Source: Acidobacteriota bacterium
Lineage (GTDB): Bacteria > Acidobacteriota > Terriglobia > Terriglobales > SCQP01
Length of the DNA stretch: 50,855 bases
Assembly (NCBI GenBank): GCA_021818955.1
Contig: JAKASR010000026.1
Span: forward strand, 1-50,855
Reading direction: 5' to 3'
The position numbers and the translations under genes are program-made. Every line of letters begins with the position of its first letter. Position 1 is the first letter of the stretch. This document shows, piece after piece, positions 20,555-26,309 of this stretch. The notes under the pieces are model-generated. The model was not told the origin of the DNA. It saw only the letters and a list, made by a program, of their open reading frames with translations, and searched no databases.

Positions 20555-21481
20555 ATGCGAATTCAAAGGCCGCGATTCCGTTTTCTGTTGTTTGGCCTGG
20601 GCTGGGCCCTCGCCATCGCGCTGCCGCTCCAGGCCAAGCGCGTACACTATATCCGCCCCGTAGTCGCCAGTTTTCCCGCCCAAGGACTCGGAACCATCGT
20701 CATCGAAAACCTGGATGGACCGATCACGTTGAGCACCGAGACGACCTCCACCGTGAAAGTCGAAGCGCTGATCCATGCCGGCGGCGCGGATGAAACCTTT
20801 GCCCGCACGCTCAGCGATCAGCTACGGCTCACGCCGCATGTCGTCGGGAATCAACTGCGGATTGTGGCCCATTACCCGGTCATGCAGTTTCACGACTACG
20901 GTTATCCGCACATCCGCTCGTTGTTCCACATTTCGATGTTCCATTTCTTTCACGGCACCGACACCAACCGCTATGAGCATCAGACGGTGCATGTGCGCAA
21001 GGTGGGCAGCGGGCAGAGCGTCGAGTTGTGGACCGAAATCCGGGTTACCGCCCCACCCACGGTCACGGTTTATGTGCGTAACGTTTATGGCAACGTGGAG
21101 AGCCGCGGGCATGGGCCGGCCGGCAATGGCGAGCTGGACGCATTCACTTCCGCCGGCGACATCGTCGTCAACAACCCGCGCTGGTCCAAATTAAATCTGC
21201 AAAGCGATTACGGCGCGGTGAAATTTCCGCGCGGGCTGGGCGTGGCGGAAAACATCAAATTGAAAACGCATTTCGGCGGCGCCTTTCTATTCCTGGCGCC
21301 CGGCGCCTCGGGCCAGATTATCGCCCGCAAGAACCTGGGGTTTTTACATAATTCCTTTACGAAAGGGCATTTTACCCGGCATGGGAATCATTGGGTGATG
21401 CTTCTCGGCGACGGCCATGGCCCGATAGTACACGTGGATATGCAAGTCGGCAGCCTGCACCTGCAGCGCCAACAGAATTAG
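20555..21481 (+). CDS. Secreted DUF4097-like beta-repeat protein
   Basis: 308 aa. Signal peptide at residues 1-27 (FLLFGLGWALAIALPLQAK). The body contains a run of short beta segments characteristic of right-handed DUF4097/adhesin-like folds: GTIVIENLDGPITLSTE, TVYVRNVYGNVESRG, DIVVNNPRWSKLNLQSDYG and a His-rich middle (HDYGYPHIRSLFHISMFHFF). Function is unknown. It is divergent from the LolA-like gene, with ~97 bp between them that must hold both promoters. A terminator-like hairpin follows the stop codon immediately. Confidence 0.72.
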   Translation: MRIQRPRFRFLLFGLGWALAIALPLQAKRVHYIRPVVASFPAQGLGTIVIENLDGPITLSTETTSTVKVEALIHAGGADETFARTLSDQLRLTPHVVGNQLRIVAHYPVMQFHDYGYPHIRSLFHISMFHFFHGTDTNRYEHQTVHVRKVGSGQSVELWTEIRVTAPPTVTVYVRNVYGNVESRGHGPAGNGELDAFTSAGDIVVNNPRWSKLNLQSDYGAVKFPRGLGVAENIKLKTHFGGAFLFLAPGASGQIIARKNLGFLHNSFTKGHFTRHGNHWVMLLGDGHGPIVHVDMQVGSLHLQRQQN

Positions 21482-21542: not shown

Positions 21543-22409
21543 ATGAAACCAGCCAACATTGGCGAACGACGCGTAAAATTCTTATTTGGCGCCCTGCTCT
21601 TATGCGGCAGCGCGGCGGGCGCGGGCGGGGCAACCCGCAGGCATGGCGAATCGCGTTTTATGGCGCGACTGCCCAAGCCGATCGCACGCCAGGCGATGCA
21701 AAGCCCGGAAACCTGGGAACTGCTGCGGGACTACGGCGCCATGTATATGGCGCGGGGGGTGAGATTGCCGCCCCGGCTGGTTTTTTACTCCGCGGCCGAC
21801 ACCGCGCGGTGGCAAGAGCAGACACCACAGATCAGCCGGCGCTGGGATGGCGTTCAAGTCACACTCCAGCCGCCAGCGATGGCGGCGCTGGCGACAGCCC
21901 GCGACCGCGCCCTCCATGCGGGCATGCGGCTTGAGCCTCGCGGCGCCGATGCCAGCCGGCGAGATTATGAGCAAACCGCACGGCTTTGGGAAAGCCGCGT
22001 CAGACCGGCGCTGCGTTATTGGCAGCGCCGCGGCCGGCTCAGCCGGCGCGAAGCCGCCCGCATACGCTCGCTCACCCCGGCCAGGCAAGTGCCATGGGTG
22101 CTGCGGCTCGAGCGGCAAGGGGTCTGGTTCAGCACCTACTTCAATAAATCCATACTCGATTCCGTAGCCGCGCCCGGAAGTTCGCAACACCTGGCGATGC
22201 TGGCCTTCGACCTGCGGGAATATTCCAACCCTCGGCTTTGGCGGCTGCTCGCCGCAACCGGCTGGTATCAAACCATCCCCACCGACTTGCCGCATTTCAC
22301 TTACCTGGGCTGGCCGCAAACGGAGTTACCGCGCCTTGGCCTACATTTATATCGAGCGCAAGGGCATATTTTCTGGATTCCCGATTTGGCGGCGCACCGC
22401 CCCCACTAG
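21543..22409 (+). CDS. VanY-like (peptidase M15) secreted protein
   Basis: 288 aa. Signal peptide at about 10-30 (VKFLFGALLLCGSAAGAGGA). The C-terminal half matches D,D-carboxypeptidases of the VanY/M15 type, which trim peptidoglycan stem peptides: SQHLAMLAFD (214-223) supplies zinc ligands His-216 and Asp-223, and DLPHF (248-252) supplies His-251. In active family members an ExxH glutamate precedes that histidine; here Asp-248 occupies the position. It may therefore be a weak or altered peptidase. RRDYEQTARLWESRVRPA is the expected substrate-side helix. Export to the cell wall fits the role. Confidence 0.72.
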   Translation: MKPANIGERRVKFLFGALLLCGSAAGAGGATRRHGESRFMARLPKPIARQAMQSPETWELLRDYGAMYMARGVRLPPRLVFYSAADTARWQEQTPQISRRWDGVQVTLQPPAMAALATARDRALHAGMRLEPRGADASRRDYEQTARLWESRVRPALRYWQRRGRLSRREAARIRSLTPARQVPWVLRLERQGVWFSTYFNKSILDSVAAPGSSQHLAMLAFDLREYSNPRLWRLLAATGWYQTIPTDLPHFTYLGWPQTELPRLGLHLYRAQGHIFWIPDLAAHRPH

Positions 22410-22704: not shown

Positions 22705-24018
22705 ATGCTCGGCGGCATGGAATTGGGCATCGTCGCCGGCGAAGCCTCGGGCGACCGGCAGGCGGCAGCGCTGGTCGAAGAGTTGCGCGCCCGGCATGCG
22801 GATTGGCATTTTTTTGGCTGCGGCGGCGAGCGGATGCGGCAGGCAGGATGCGAGTTGCTGCTGGATGCGCGGCAGCTTTCGTTATTGGGGCTGGCGGAAG
22901 TCGTGCGCCATCTGCCGCGCCTGTATCGTCTTTATCGCCGGCTGTGGAAGGAAATTGCGCGCCGCCGGCCCAGGGCGCTGGTGCTGGTGGATTTTCCCGA
23001 TTTCAACCTGCGCCTGGCGCGCCGCGCCGCCGCCGCGGGCATTCCGGTGATCTATTTCATCAGCCCGCAAGTCTGGGCCTGGCGGCCAGGGCGAGTTCGG
23101 CTGCTGCGCCGCACGGTGCGGCGCATGATTTGTATATTCCCTTTCGAAACCGCCTTTTATGCCCGGCATGGTATGGCCGCCGATTTCGTCGGGCATCCCC
23201 TGACCGAGCAAATCAAGCGGCAGGAGGCCGGTTGCGCGGAATTTCTTCATCAAGCCGGCTGCGCGGCCAACCGGCCGGTGGTGGCCTTGTTGCCAGGCAG
23301 CCGGCGACGCGAGTTGGAATTTCATTTGCCGGTGCTGGCGGCAGCGGCGCGCCGGCTATATGCCGAACGCCAGATCCATTTCCTGCTGCCGGTGGCGCCC
23401 GGACTCGAACTGGCCAGCGCGGAACGCCAATTGGAGCGCCCGGATCAGAAATTCATCCACCTGCTGGCGGGACAAAGCGAACGAGCGCTCACCTGCGCGC
23501 AAGTAGCGGTAGTGGCCAGCGGCACGGCCACGCTGGAAGCGGCCCTGCTGGAAACTCCGAGCCTGGTGGTATACCGGCTTTCACGCTGGACCTATTGGCT
23601 GGGGCGGCGGCTGGTACGCACGCCGTATATTGCCATGCCCAATCTGATTTTGGGCGCGCCGGTATTGCCCGAACTGATCCAAAACGACTTCACCCCGGAG
23701 GCTGTTGTAAACTGGGTTCGAAAGCTGCTCGACGAGCCGGCCACGCGCCAACAGATGGCAGACCGCCTGGCGGAAGTTCGCGAGCAATTGGGACCTCCGG
23801 GAGCGATAGCCCGCGCTGCCGATTGCCTCGAATCCGAACTGGGCACCGGCCCCAGCAACACCGCAGGAACGCCCGGCCTGCACGAAACGGATGCGCCCGC
23901 GCAGAAATCCGGCTTATACCACAATGAAAACCATGCATCTTCGTTTGGCTATTGGTTTATGCCTAATGGCAGCCCTGGCGGCCGCGGGGCAGGCTCCGAC
24001 TGCGCCCAGCACCCTTAG
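22705..24018 (+). CDS. lpxB: Lipid-A-disaccharide synthase
   Basis: 437 aa (an ATG four codons later is equally possible). It condenses UDP-diacylglucosamine with lipid X during lipid A synthesis at the inner membrane. GIVAGEASGDRQAAALVEEL, LVDFPDFNLRLA, YFISPQVWAWRPGR, FVGHPLTEQ, LLPGSRRRELEFHLP and ASGTATLEAALL are all diagnostic of the family (GT19). The family normally ends near residue 385; here a ~50-residue Ala/Gly/Pro-rich tail runs into the next gene and overlaps its signal peptide by 95 bp. Confidence 0.94.
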   Translation: MLGGMELGIVAGEASGDRQAAALVEELRARHADWHFFGCGGERMRQAGCELLLDARQLSLLGLAEVVRHLPRLYRLYRRLWKEIARRRPRALVLVDFPDFNLRLARRAAAAGIPVIYFISPQVWAWRPGRVRLLRRTVRRMICIFPFETAFYARHGMAADFVGHPLTEQIKRQEAGCAEFLHQAGCAANRPVVALLPGSRRRELEFHLPVLAAAARRLYAERQIHFLLPVAPGLELASAERQLERPDQKFIHLLAGQSERALTCAQVAVVASGTATLEAALLETPSLVVYRLSRWTYWLGRRLVRTPYIAMPNLILGAPVLPELIQNDFTPEAVVNWVRKLLDEPATRQQMADRLAEVREQLGPPGAIARAADCLESELGTGPSNTAGTPGLHETDAPAQKSGLYHNENHASSFGYWFMPNGSPGGRGAGSDCAQHP

Positions 24019-25939
24019 CACGCCCAGTGTTCCATCCATACCCGGCAATTTTGCGACTATCCGCGTCAGCCATTACCACCTTGATCTCGGCTTTAATTTT
24101 CCCGCTCACCAGCTCACCGCGACGGCGAAAGTCACGTTTCAAATCCTCTCGCCCGGCTCGGTAATCACCTTGCTGCTCAATCAAAACCTGGGCGTGAAAA
24201 AGGTTACCGACGACCAGAACGGGCCTTTGAATTTTCAACGGCGCGGCGAACAGGTTCTCGTCTATTACCCCAATCCGCTCACAGCCAATCAACCCCAAAC
24301 GCTGGTGATGGAATATGCCGGGCAATTAGCCAGCACCGCGCTCAGCCCGATTTCCGGATTGGAAACCGCCTACGTCGGGCCAGAAGGCTCATTTCTTCTT
24401 TACCCTGGGGAGTGGTTTCCGATGGTGGGCTATAACACCGATCGTTTCAGCATGACGGTAAGCGCAACCCTGCCCCCTCCTTATGGATTACTGGCCAGCG
24501 GACAAGCGACAGCAACGCCCCAACCTGATAACACCGTGGTGTACACCTGGCGCGAAACGACGCCCGGATTTCCCGGCAGCGTGGCCATCACTCCCTTGCG
24601 GCCCCAGACGTACACCCTATCCGGCCTGACCAGCAATTTTTATTTTGCCGCCAACACACCGCCGGCGCTGTTGCAGCAATACGCCAATTCGGCCGCGGCG
24701 ATTGCCGGTTTTATCAATGAAAGGGTAGGCACGCCGCCGACCAACACGCTGATCTTCGTCGAATTGCCCAACAACAGCCTGCCCTCCTATAGCTCACCGG
24801 GCTTGATTTTTTTGACCCAATCGAGCGTGGGCACCACCCTGAACTATCGCTTGCTGACGGATGAGATAGCGCAACAGTGGTTCGGCAACCTGATTAGCCC
24901 GGCAACCCTGAACGACAGCTGGATTCAATATGGCGCGGCGCGTTTTTTTGAAGCGTTGTACGTGGAACAGTTGGACGGCCAGGAAGCCTACCAGACGGTG
25001 ATTCGCGATTTTGCGGTAGGCGCGCTCAGCTATCCGCAAACCGCGCTGGCGCAGACGGCCACACTCTATCCGTTTTCACCCGCCTATCAGGATTTGACCT
25101 ACGATAAGGGCGCCATGCTGTTCCACATGCTGCGCTGGCAACTGGGAGACCAGCATCTGTTTACCGGCTTGCGGCAGTTCGTGGCCCAATACGCCAATCA
25201 GCCGGTCACCACCGCCGAATTGCAGCAAAGCCTCGAAGCCGCCAGCGGCACGAGCCTGAATGCCTTTTTCGCCGAGTGGTATCGTGGCACCGAGTCCCCA
25301 ACTTTTCATAATCAATATACGGTTTATCGCCTCTATCAGGGCGGGTTTCGCATCGTCGGCCAATTGAAGCAAAACCTGAACCTGTTCGCCATGCCGGTGG
25401 AAATCAGAGTCCTAACCGACGGCAAACCGGTCAACCAACGGATCGAGGTAGAAGGGCGCAACAGTCCATACAGCATCGCCACTGCCGATCGCCCGCGGAA
25501 CGTGCAGGTGGATCCCCATCATTGGCTATTGATCAACTCGCCCGAAATTCAGCTACGCGTGGAAATCGCCCGCGGCGACAACCAGGTGGCCGCCGGCAAT
25601 TTTCCCGGGGCGATCCGGCATTATGAAATGGCGTTAAAAATCAACCCCATCAGTTCGCTCGCGCACTATCGCATCGCCGAAGCCGATTATCAGGAGCAGA
25701 ACTGGCAGGGCGCGGCCGACCAATACCGCGACGCTTTGGGCGGCGATCTGCGCCCGGAATGGATCCGGGTCTGGAGCCACATCCAGCTGGGTAAAATCTT
25801 CGACCTCACCGGCCAACGCGATCGCGCGGTGCATGAGTACGAACGGGCGCTGCAAACGCACGACAACACCGATGGCGCGCTCAGCCTGGCACGGGAGTAT
25901 CTGAAGACGCCCTACAAACAGGCGCGGGCCAGCGCTTGA
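23924..25939 (+). CDS. M1-aminopeptidase-like pseudoenzyme with C-terminal TPRs
   Basis: 671 aa from MKTMHLRLAIG. Residues 1-23 form a signal peptide. The rest follows the M1 metallopeptidase layout: beta N-domain, then LLTDEIAQQWFGNL where the HExxH helix should be, WIQYGA where the third zinc ligand lies, and a helical region, followed by two or three TPR-like repeats (about 540-640, NFPGAIRHYEMALKINP). All three zinc ligands are replaced (Asp-313, Gln-317, Tyr-336), though Glu-314 remains. I infer a secreted, non-catalytic protein. It overlaps the end of lpxB. Confidence 0.85.
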   Translation: MKTMHLRLAIGLCLMAALAAAGQAPTAPSTLSTPSVPSIPGNFATIRVSHYHLDLGFNFPAHQLTATAKVTFQILSPGSVITLLLNQNLGVKKVTDDQNGPLNFQRRGEQVLVYYPNPLTANQPQTLVMEYAGQLASTALSPISGLETAYVGPEGSFLLYPGEWFPMVGYNTDRFSMTVSATLPPPYGLLASGQATATPQPDNTVVYTWRETTPGFPGSVAITPLRPQTYTLSGLTSNFYFAANTPPALLQQYANSAAAIAGFINERVGTPPTNTLIFVELPNNSLPSYSSPGLIFLTQSSVGTTLNYRLLTDEIAQQWFGNLISPATLNDSWIQYGAARFFEALYVEQLDGQEAYQTVIRDFAVGALSYPQTALAQTATLYPFSPAYQDLTYDKGAMLFHMLRWQLGDQHLFTGLRQFVAQYANQPVTTAELQQSLEAASGTSLNAFFAEWYRGTESPTFHNQYTVYRLYQGGFRIVGQLKQNLNLFAMPVEIRVLTDGKPVNQRIEVEGRNSPYSIATADRPRNVQVDPHHWLLINSPEIQLRVEIARGDNQVAAGNFPGAIRHYEMALKINPISSLAHYRIAEADYQEQNWQGAADQYRDALGGDLRPEWIRVWSHIQLGKIFDLTGQRDRAVHEYERALQTHDNTDGALSLAREYLKTPYKQARASA

Positions 25940-25970
25940 ACGGCTGCCCCGTCCTACAATGGGGAGCGCC

Positions 25971-26309
25971 ATGGATTGCATCTTCTGCCGCATCATCTCG
26001 GGCGATTTGCCCGCGAAAAAGATCTTTGAAGACGAACGCGTACTGGCCTTCGAAGACTTGAATCCCAAAGCGCCGACGCATCTGCTGCTGATTCCGCGTG
26101 AGCACATAGCCGGCCTGGCCGAAGCGGAAGCGCAGCACGATGCTCTACTGGGCTACTTACAACGCATCGCCGCGCAGCTTGCCCAGGAGCGGGGACTCAC
26201 CGGCGGATATCGCACCGTACTGAATGTGGGACCGGATGCCGGCCAGAGCGTATTCCATCTGCATGTGCACCTGCTCGGCGGACGCGCGATGAGCTGGCCG
26301 CCGGGCTAG
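25971..26309 (+). CDS. HIT-family nucleotide-binding protein
   Basis: 112 aa from MDCIFCRIISGDLPAKK, supported by GGGGAG four bases upstream. HIT proteins hydrolyse AMP-linked nucleotides such as adenosine 5'-phosphoramidates. The histidine triad HLHVHLLGG lies at the C-terminus, preceded by NVGPDAGQSVFHLH, and CIFC with HLLLIPREHI is typical of the HinT branch. Length is normal (110-120). It follows the M1-like gene by 31 bp and is convergent with rlpA. Confidence 0.95.
   Translation: MDCIFCRIISGDLPAKKIFEDERVLAFEDLNPKAPTHLLLIPREHIAGLAEAEAQHDALLGYLQRIAAQLAQERGLTGGYRTVLNVGPDAGQSVFHLHVHLLGGRAMSWPPG

Follow-up and report, generated by a model that had tools for sequence, protein, structure and literature searches.

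What a protein does when it keeps a peptidase fold after the metal ligands have been replaced is the question raised by an open reading frame (ORF) at positions 23924-25939 of contig JAKASR010000026.1 (assembly GCA_021818955.1), from an Acidobacteriota bacterium of the class Terriglobia; the window analysed here is the whole stretch of 50,855 nucleotides, positions 1 to 50,855. The product, termed pseudo-M1 in the following, is strongly supported, by sequence comparison and a structural model, as an M1 fold from which the zinc site has gone. On balance, it is probably secreted and without catalytic activity, an M1-fold protein whose work is binding, as a periplasmic assembly factor of outer-membrane and lipopolysaccharide (LPS) biogenesis. 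The parts of the gene, all on the forward strand, are as follows.

23924-25939, forward strand: pseudo-M1 with TPR, 671 amino acids, stop codon included (ORF, Pfam, AlphaFold2 model).
23924-23995, forward strand: signal-peptide-like N-terminus (MKTMHLRLAIGLCLMAALAAAGQA), without a visible lipobox (reading of the sequence).
24059-24628, forward strand: predicted M1 N-terminal beta domain, residues 46-235 (AlphaFold2 secondary structure, sub-threshold PF17900).
24629-25288, forward strand: catalytic-like M1 domain without zinc site, residues 236-455 (PF01433, VIA-align).
24860-24874, forward strand: HExxH position, reading D313-E314-I-A-Q317 (alignment).
24929-24931, forward strand: position of the third zinc ligand, Y336 (alignment).
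25100-25102, forward strand: position of the catalytic tyrosine, Y393, retained within Y-D-K-G (alignment).
25289-25543, forward strand: predicted beta-sandwich at the position of M1 domain III, residues 456-540 (AlphaFold2, structure alignments).
25544-25906, forward strand: C-terminal TPR helices, residues 541-661, the most conserved part (Pfam, AlphaFold2, column entropy).

The original prediction, made from the letters of the DNA, assigned the protein to the M1 fold, with a signal peptide and C-terminal TPR repeats, and the profile search and the structure prediction agree with this assignment. Pfam Peptidase_M1 (PF01433) matches residues 308-452 (1.9e-19; 70.6 bits against a cut-off of 27.7), and Peptidase_M1_N (PF17900) matches residues 49-137 below threshold (20.2 against 25.8 bits). 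TPR_2 was found at 7.2e-11, with TPR families spanning about residues 549 to 648, and at E<=1 the Pfam search of pseudo-M1 gave M1 and TPR families only, with no M48 match. An AlphaFold2 model built from a 37-sequence alignment reached a predicted local distance difference test score (pLDDT) of 87.8 and a predicted TM-score (pTM) of 0.86, and VIA-align superposed it on M1 structures with Z of 28-29, for example on 1z1w (Z 29.4, root-mean-square deviation 7.2, 527 residues aligned) and on 8sw0 (Z 29.1, deviation 3.6, 500 aligned). In the model the catalytic-like domain is followed by a beta region at 461-529 and by helices from 540. The structure alignments extend to residues 535-576 in many rows and scarcely cover the TPR part, so that the TPR fold is claimed on the Pfam matches and the AlphaFold2 helices.

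At the positions of the M1 H, E, H and E residues the window protein reads D313, E314, Q317 and Y336, with the motif stretch T312-D313-E314-I-A-Q317-Q-W319-F-G. These positions were judged from alignment and secondary structure: the AlphaFold2 helices 308-316 and 329-351 correspond to those on which M1 enzymes bear the first two ligands and the third, respectively, and phmmer, run against PDB sequences, aligned DEIAQQWFGNL of pseudo-M1 to ELAHQWFGNL of ERAP1, bearing out the use of WFGNL as an anchor. The replacements first read from the sequence were thus correct in residue numbers, coordinates and ORF. An alternative alignment restoring the site was ruled out, as HExxH occurs neither in the protein nor in the six frames of 23801-26000; the HExxH-18-E zinc site is not present in the window protein, and the GxMEN exopeptidase motif was not found anywhere in it. 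E314 had been described as all that remained, which holds for the HExxH...E positions and not for the active site overall, since Y393 and the whole YxKG motif (Y393-D-K395-G396) are intact. Judged from these residues, the loss of normal aminopeptidase activity is close to certain, as had been proposed; HExxH and GxMEN are both absent from the protein. The accompanying suggestion, of a protein that may instead bind peptides or serve as a scaffold in the envelope, is likewise the most plausible one. The M1 aminopeptidases (PF01433), such as tricorn-interacting factor F3, ERAP1, LTA4H and the two-domain M1 enzyme of Deinococcus, share with pseudo-M1 the N-domain, the catalytic-like domain, the beta-sandwich, WFGN and YxKG, whereas pseudo-M1 lacks the zinc ligands and GxMEN and carries TPR helices after the beta-sandwich, a position occupied by a helical domain in the larger M1 enzymes.

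The variation of the zinc site was followed in 126 orthologues, chosen for taxonomic spread rather than at random, 14 of them from the window's own family. At least one of H/E/H/E is missing in 122 of the 126, and in 77 none of the three zinc ligands is left; more than 50 residue combinations occur at the four tetrad positions. The window's family reads DEQY in all 14 sequences, so that the losses first noticed here are shared by its relatives, and elsewhere the site was lost differently: NTHN, NTHD or NAHD predominate in other members of the order and RLSD in a related group (gp2 and Acidiferrum records); members from outside the class have REYQ and many others. The complete tetrad was found in four orthologues, L116, L189 and L191 (family f5) and L131 (f10), all of which retain HExxH-18-E and lack GxMEN; L191, which does not lie beside lpxB, is the only orthologue with all five catalytic residues, tyrosine included. 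As a control, another M1 family was found to keep HExxH-E and GxMEN/GxLEN in 12/12 sequences from 11 class genomes, and the YxKG string in ten of the 12, in a set that includes the query and a second copy from the window genome; this control family is patchy (11/61 genomes at 1e-100). A minimum of five losses of the full tetrad is required if the ancestor is taken to have been intact and regain is disallowed, one of the branches concerned having a support of 42; under unordered parsimony the number of changes falls to four with outgroups and to three within the family, there with an ancestor already dead.

The pseudo-M1 gene is a near-universal family of the window's class. It was present in 14/14 genomes searched of the window's own family, and within Terriglobia a match at 1e-60 or better was obtained in 291/299 genomes, mostly single; nine of the 291 appear to show two matches, possibly from split genes, and the matches printed for class genomes are free of stops. 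Outside the class, a full-type orthologue is carried by 34 genomes of a 149-genome phylum sample, in which 50 genomes have the full-type gene; five more match only at 7.5e-41 to 1.2e-43, ending before the TPR part. A scan of a genome collection, driven by short peptide patterns from the window protein, returned 27 named family records, all from Acidobacteria and some labelled Acidobacteriales or Terriglobia, labels that make Terriglobia the probable name of the class counted here. The same scan gave 29 loci in other groups in which the match ends at residue 555 or earlier (625 in L063); 28 of them retain H/E/H at the motif, the remaining one being cut off there. The orthologues are clearly separated from other M1 proteins (at least 326 bits against at most 179 bits) and form one clade against seven of these (Shimodaira-Hasegawa-like approximate likelihood-ratio test support 99). 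In G004-G006 (L021-L023, L031, L032 and L034), 993-residue open frames surround the orthologue and share about 900 bases with the lpxB ORF, and the orthologue match is interrupted around residue 472.

The gene is under purifying selection. For the window gene paired with the closest of its orthologues, the ratio of nonsynonymous to synonymous substitution rates (dN/dS) is 0.097 (0.082 in the catalytic-like domain and 0.057 in the TPR part), with a range of 0.03-0.24 over 11 pairs. Mean column entropy rises from 1.53 bits in the TPR part through 1.68 in the beta-sandwich and 2.17 in the catalytic-like domain to 2.30 in the N-domain. Beside the dead site, W319 (0.18 bits), W333 (0.34) and G337 (0.07) are near-invariant. 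The three ligand columns reach 2.3-3.1 bits, 47% to 80% of the ordinary columns of the domain being less variable; they are therefore about as variable as ordinary columns and not exceptional, the pattern to be expected once selection maintains the fold but no longer the reaction.

A secretion-type hydrophobic start is present in the window protein, in line with the signal peptide first proposed, and similar starts were found in 124 of the 125 orthologues with sufficient upstream sequence by a crude, uncontrolled test of hydrophobicity; a lipobox is present in two. The genes that flank pseudo-M1 are the following.

22705-24018, forward strand: lpxB, lipid-A-disaccharide synthase ORF, directly upstream (PF02684 4.8e-89, TIGR00215 over cut-off).
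25959-26309, forward strand: HIT-family protein, directly downstream (domain match).

The last 95 bases of the lpxB ORF overlap the start of pseudo-M1, the lpxB profile match ending at 23775. Among 65 distinct flanked loci, 49 have lpxB as the adjacent upstream gene on the same strand; two of the other 16 are short of flank and 14 have at least 4 kb of upstream flank. Within the class, 98 genomes have both genes among the matches listed (175 pseudo-M1 places and 150 lpxB places); the pair, with lpxB immediately upstream and in the same orientation, is present in 93 of them, and in the other five the genes are on different contigs. Outside the class the pairing was found in 18/34 genomes.

The role in LPS assembly is our favourite reading, which we infer from this gene order and from analogy. 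Pseudo-M1 would be co-expressed with lpxB and would be a periplasmic adaptor for assembly or quality control during outer-membrane and LPS biogenesis. Its conserved TPR and beta-sandwich surface may dock a fixed partner, for which components of LPS transport or of beta-barrel assembly are candidates, while the most that the M1 cleft would do is to bind a peptide or beta-strand and leave it uncut. An LptD-family match over the cut-off was found in the window genome (E 1.3e-8), and a TPR match is missing from all seven M48 proteins tested out of eight found there. The analogy is with BepA of E. coli, described in the sections consulted of PMC8423444 and PMC7950410 as a periplasmic peptidase of family M48 that bears TPR at its C-terminus and promotes or degrades LptD intermediates; contacts with LptD and BAM are made by the TPR, and both activities depend on a strand next to the active site. 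As far as those sections go, both proteins combine a secreted metallopeptidase-type domain, C-terminal TPR and a link to the LPS machinery (PMC8423444; PMC7950410), the secretion of pseudo-M1 being judged by hydrophobicity only. They differ in that pseudo-M1 belongs to M1 and not to M48, has lost its catalytic site and is linked to LPS by the lpxB gene order only. In its plan pseudo-M1 is comparable to the chaperone half of BepA, with M1 in place of M48 and the protease half missing. In a stronger form, which we consider rather unlikely, a core component of lipid A/LPS assembly, near-universal throughout the class, would be a dead M1 domain joined to TPR, a periplasmic chaperone encoded beside lpxB that takes the place of a BepA-type M48-TPR protein; its zinc site would have been free to drift afterwards, and would have done so more than once.

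Several observations weigh against the favoured reading. LpxB is a cytoplasmic protein, so that the gene order shows co-regulation at most, and not contact. The gene lpxB is present in 292/299 class genomes and 142/149 phylum genomes, and since the full-type pseudo-M1 gene is found in only 50 of these 149, there is no general requirement of it for LPS. The 14 well-flanked loci without upstream lpxB include L038, from the window's own family, and L191, and 16 of the 34 out-of-class orthologues do not lie beside lpxB; of the 11 of these exceptions sequenced here, ten belong to the REYQ-type branch, and the other, G324, reads RKYE. The retention of HExxH-18-E in four of the 126 orthologues means that some members may still bind zinc. 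An ABC exporter gene, recognized by Pfam in one copy, speaks for a link to LPS, being located upstream past lpxB, with unchanged strand, in 26/65 loci (above 150 bits against the L175 protein), but it is mainly confined to one group of loci, which accounts for the 24 strong matches (above 680 bits), the two weaker ones being L185 and L187 (about 300 bits). Its identification as MsbA was dropped: the one copy tested scored 393.5 against 602 bits, below all cut-offs among the 25 NCBIfam families listed.

Pseudo-M1 might instead be a receptor for peptides or N-termini, in which the dead cleft captures peptides and the TPR part delivers them for uptake or sensing, with no tie to LPS. Adjacent to the site, the strand region of residues 289-297 retains P292 in 102/126 and G293 in 92/126 orthologues, which favours such a function, as does the precedent of the yeast M1 homologue Tma108, which, according to the portion consulted of PMC11266112, is thought to bind rather than cut and binds nascent chains, probably via its substrate pocket. 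Tma108 differs in being associated with nascent chains at the ribosome (PMC11266112, same portion). The catalytic-like domain is however less conserved than the TPR part and the beta-sandwich. In M1 enzymes free N-termini are held by the GxMEN motif, which is absent from the window protein and occurs, as GxMEN or GxLEN, in just three of the 126 orthologues. A receptor would also leave the linkage to lpxB without explanation, and we regard this alternative as unlikely.

The linkage itself could be a relic, an ancient gene order with lpxB kept for expression, pseudo-M1 being a general envelope scaffold carried along without any tie to LPS. The out-of-class orthologues located elsewhere, for example L202 beside two M16-type peptidase genes, and the flanked loci from which upstream lpxB is missing speak for this proposal. 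Against it, the lpxB pair is kept in 93 of the 98 class genomes, compared with a HIT neighbour in eight of the 65 loci, all from the window's family, and hitch-hiking is decidedly unlikely as the explanation.

It is very unlikely that pseudo-M1 is still an enzyme whose cleft supports catalysis without metal or by some other route. The window protein does retain Y393, K395, E314 and the fold, and four relatives keep H/E/H/E. The catalytic tyrosine is nevertheless retained in just 20/125 orthologues, and the diversity of combinations at the tetrad leaves no alternative residue set conserved. A salt bridge between R/K313 and D/E336, considered as a substitute for zinc, was dropped: the raw table (both residues in 50 orthologues, R/K only in 11, D/E only in 26, neither in 39) did not hold up in pairs independent on the tree, which gave a null result (ten pairs, median p 1). 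That loss of the site marks the onset of pseudogenization, as the different substitutions in different lineages might suggest, has a negligible probability and is in the main refuted by purifying selection long after the loss, in a gene that almost every class genome carries without stops in the matches printed.

We rate the principle, that of a pseudopeptidase, as known, and the architecture, its near-universal presence in a bacterial class and the conserved link to lpxB as new; no description of an inactive M1 and TPR family beside lpxB was found in the open-licence literature searched. M1-family pseudopeptidases are known from a few eukaryotic proteins, and here the gene is near-universal in a class of bacteria. 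TAF2 is a eukaryotic transcription factor in which the active site has been lost. Its M1-aminopeptidase homology domain serves as a structural part of a complex, TFIID, according to the part consulted of PMC6220335 (TAF2/Taf2), a likeness to the binding role that we favour for pseudo-M1. The zinc ligands, replaced in dozens of ways, provide a natural series on a peptidase fold after catalysis, for which the four HExxH keepers (L116, L189, L191 and L131) are natural comparison proteins with regard to metal binding, and the label 'M1 aminopeptidase' on a pseudo-M1 gene would usually be wrong. The pairing with lpxB directs attention to the biogenesis of the outer membrane in these bacteria, a link that can be tested in the cultivated members.

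The HIT match was obtained in the window's family only (same strand in five loci, opposite in three), and since it is so limited the HIT gene is probably not part of the system; HIT and RlpA-like neighbours were both rejected as partners, being found in eight and five of the 65 loci, respectively, the window and its family included. A first clustering had put the ABC exporter in 30/65 loci, a count dropped because the cluster included out-of-frame ORFs. Upstream of lpxB in the window, no Pfam domain was found in 21543-22409, and 20555-21481 encodes a secreted-looking protein without a Pfam match at 1e-4. At L202 (2662-5719), where the orthologue lies away from lpxB, the two M16-type peptidase genes are directly upstream on the opposite strand. 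One genome, G432, has three lpxB-type matches, two of them adjacent on contig C73.

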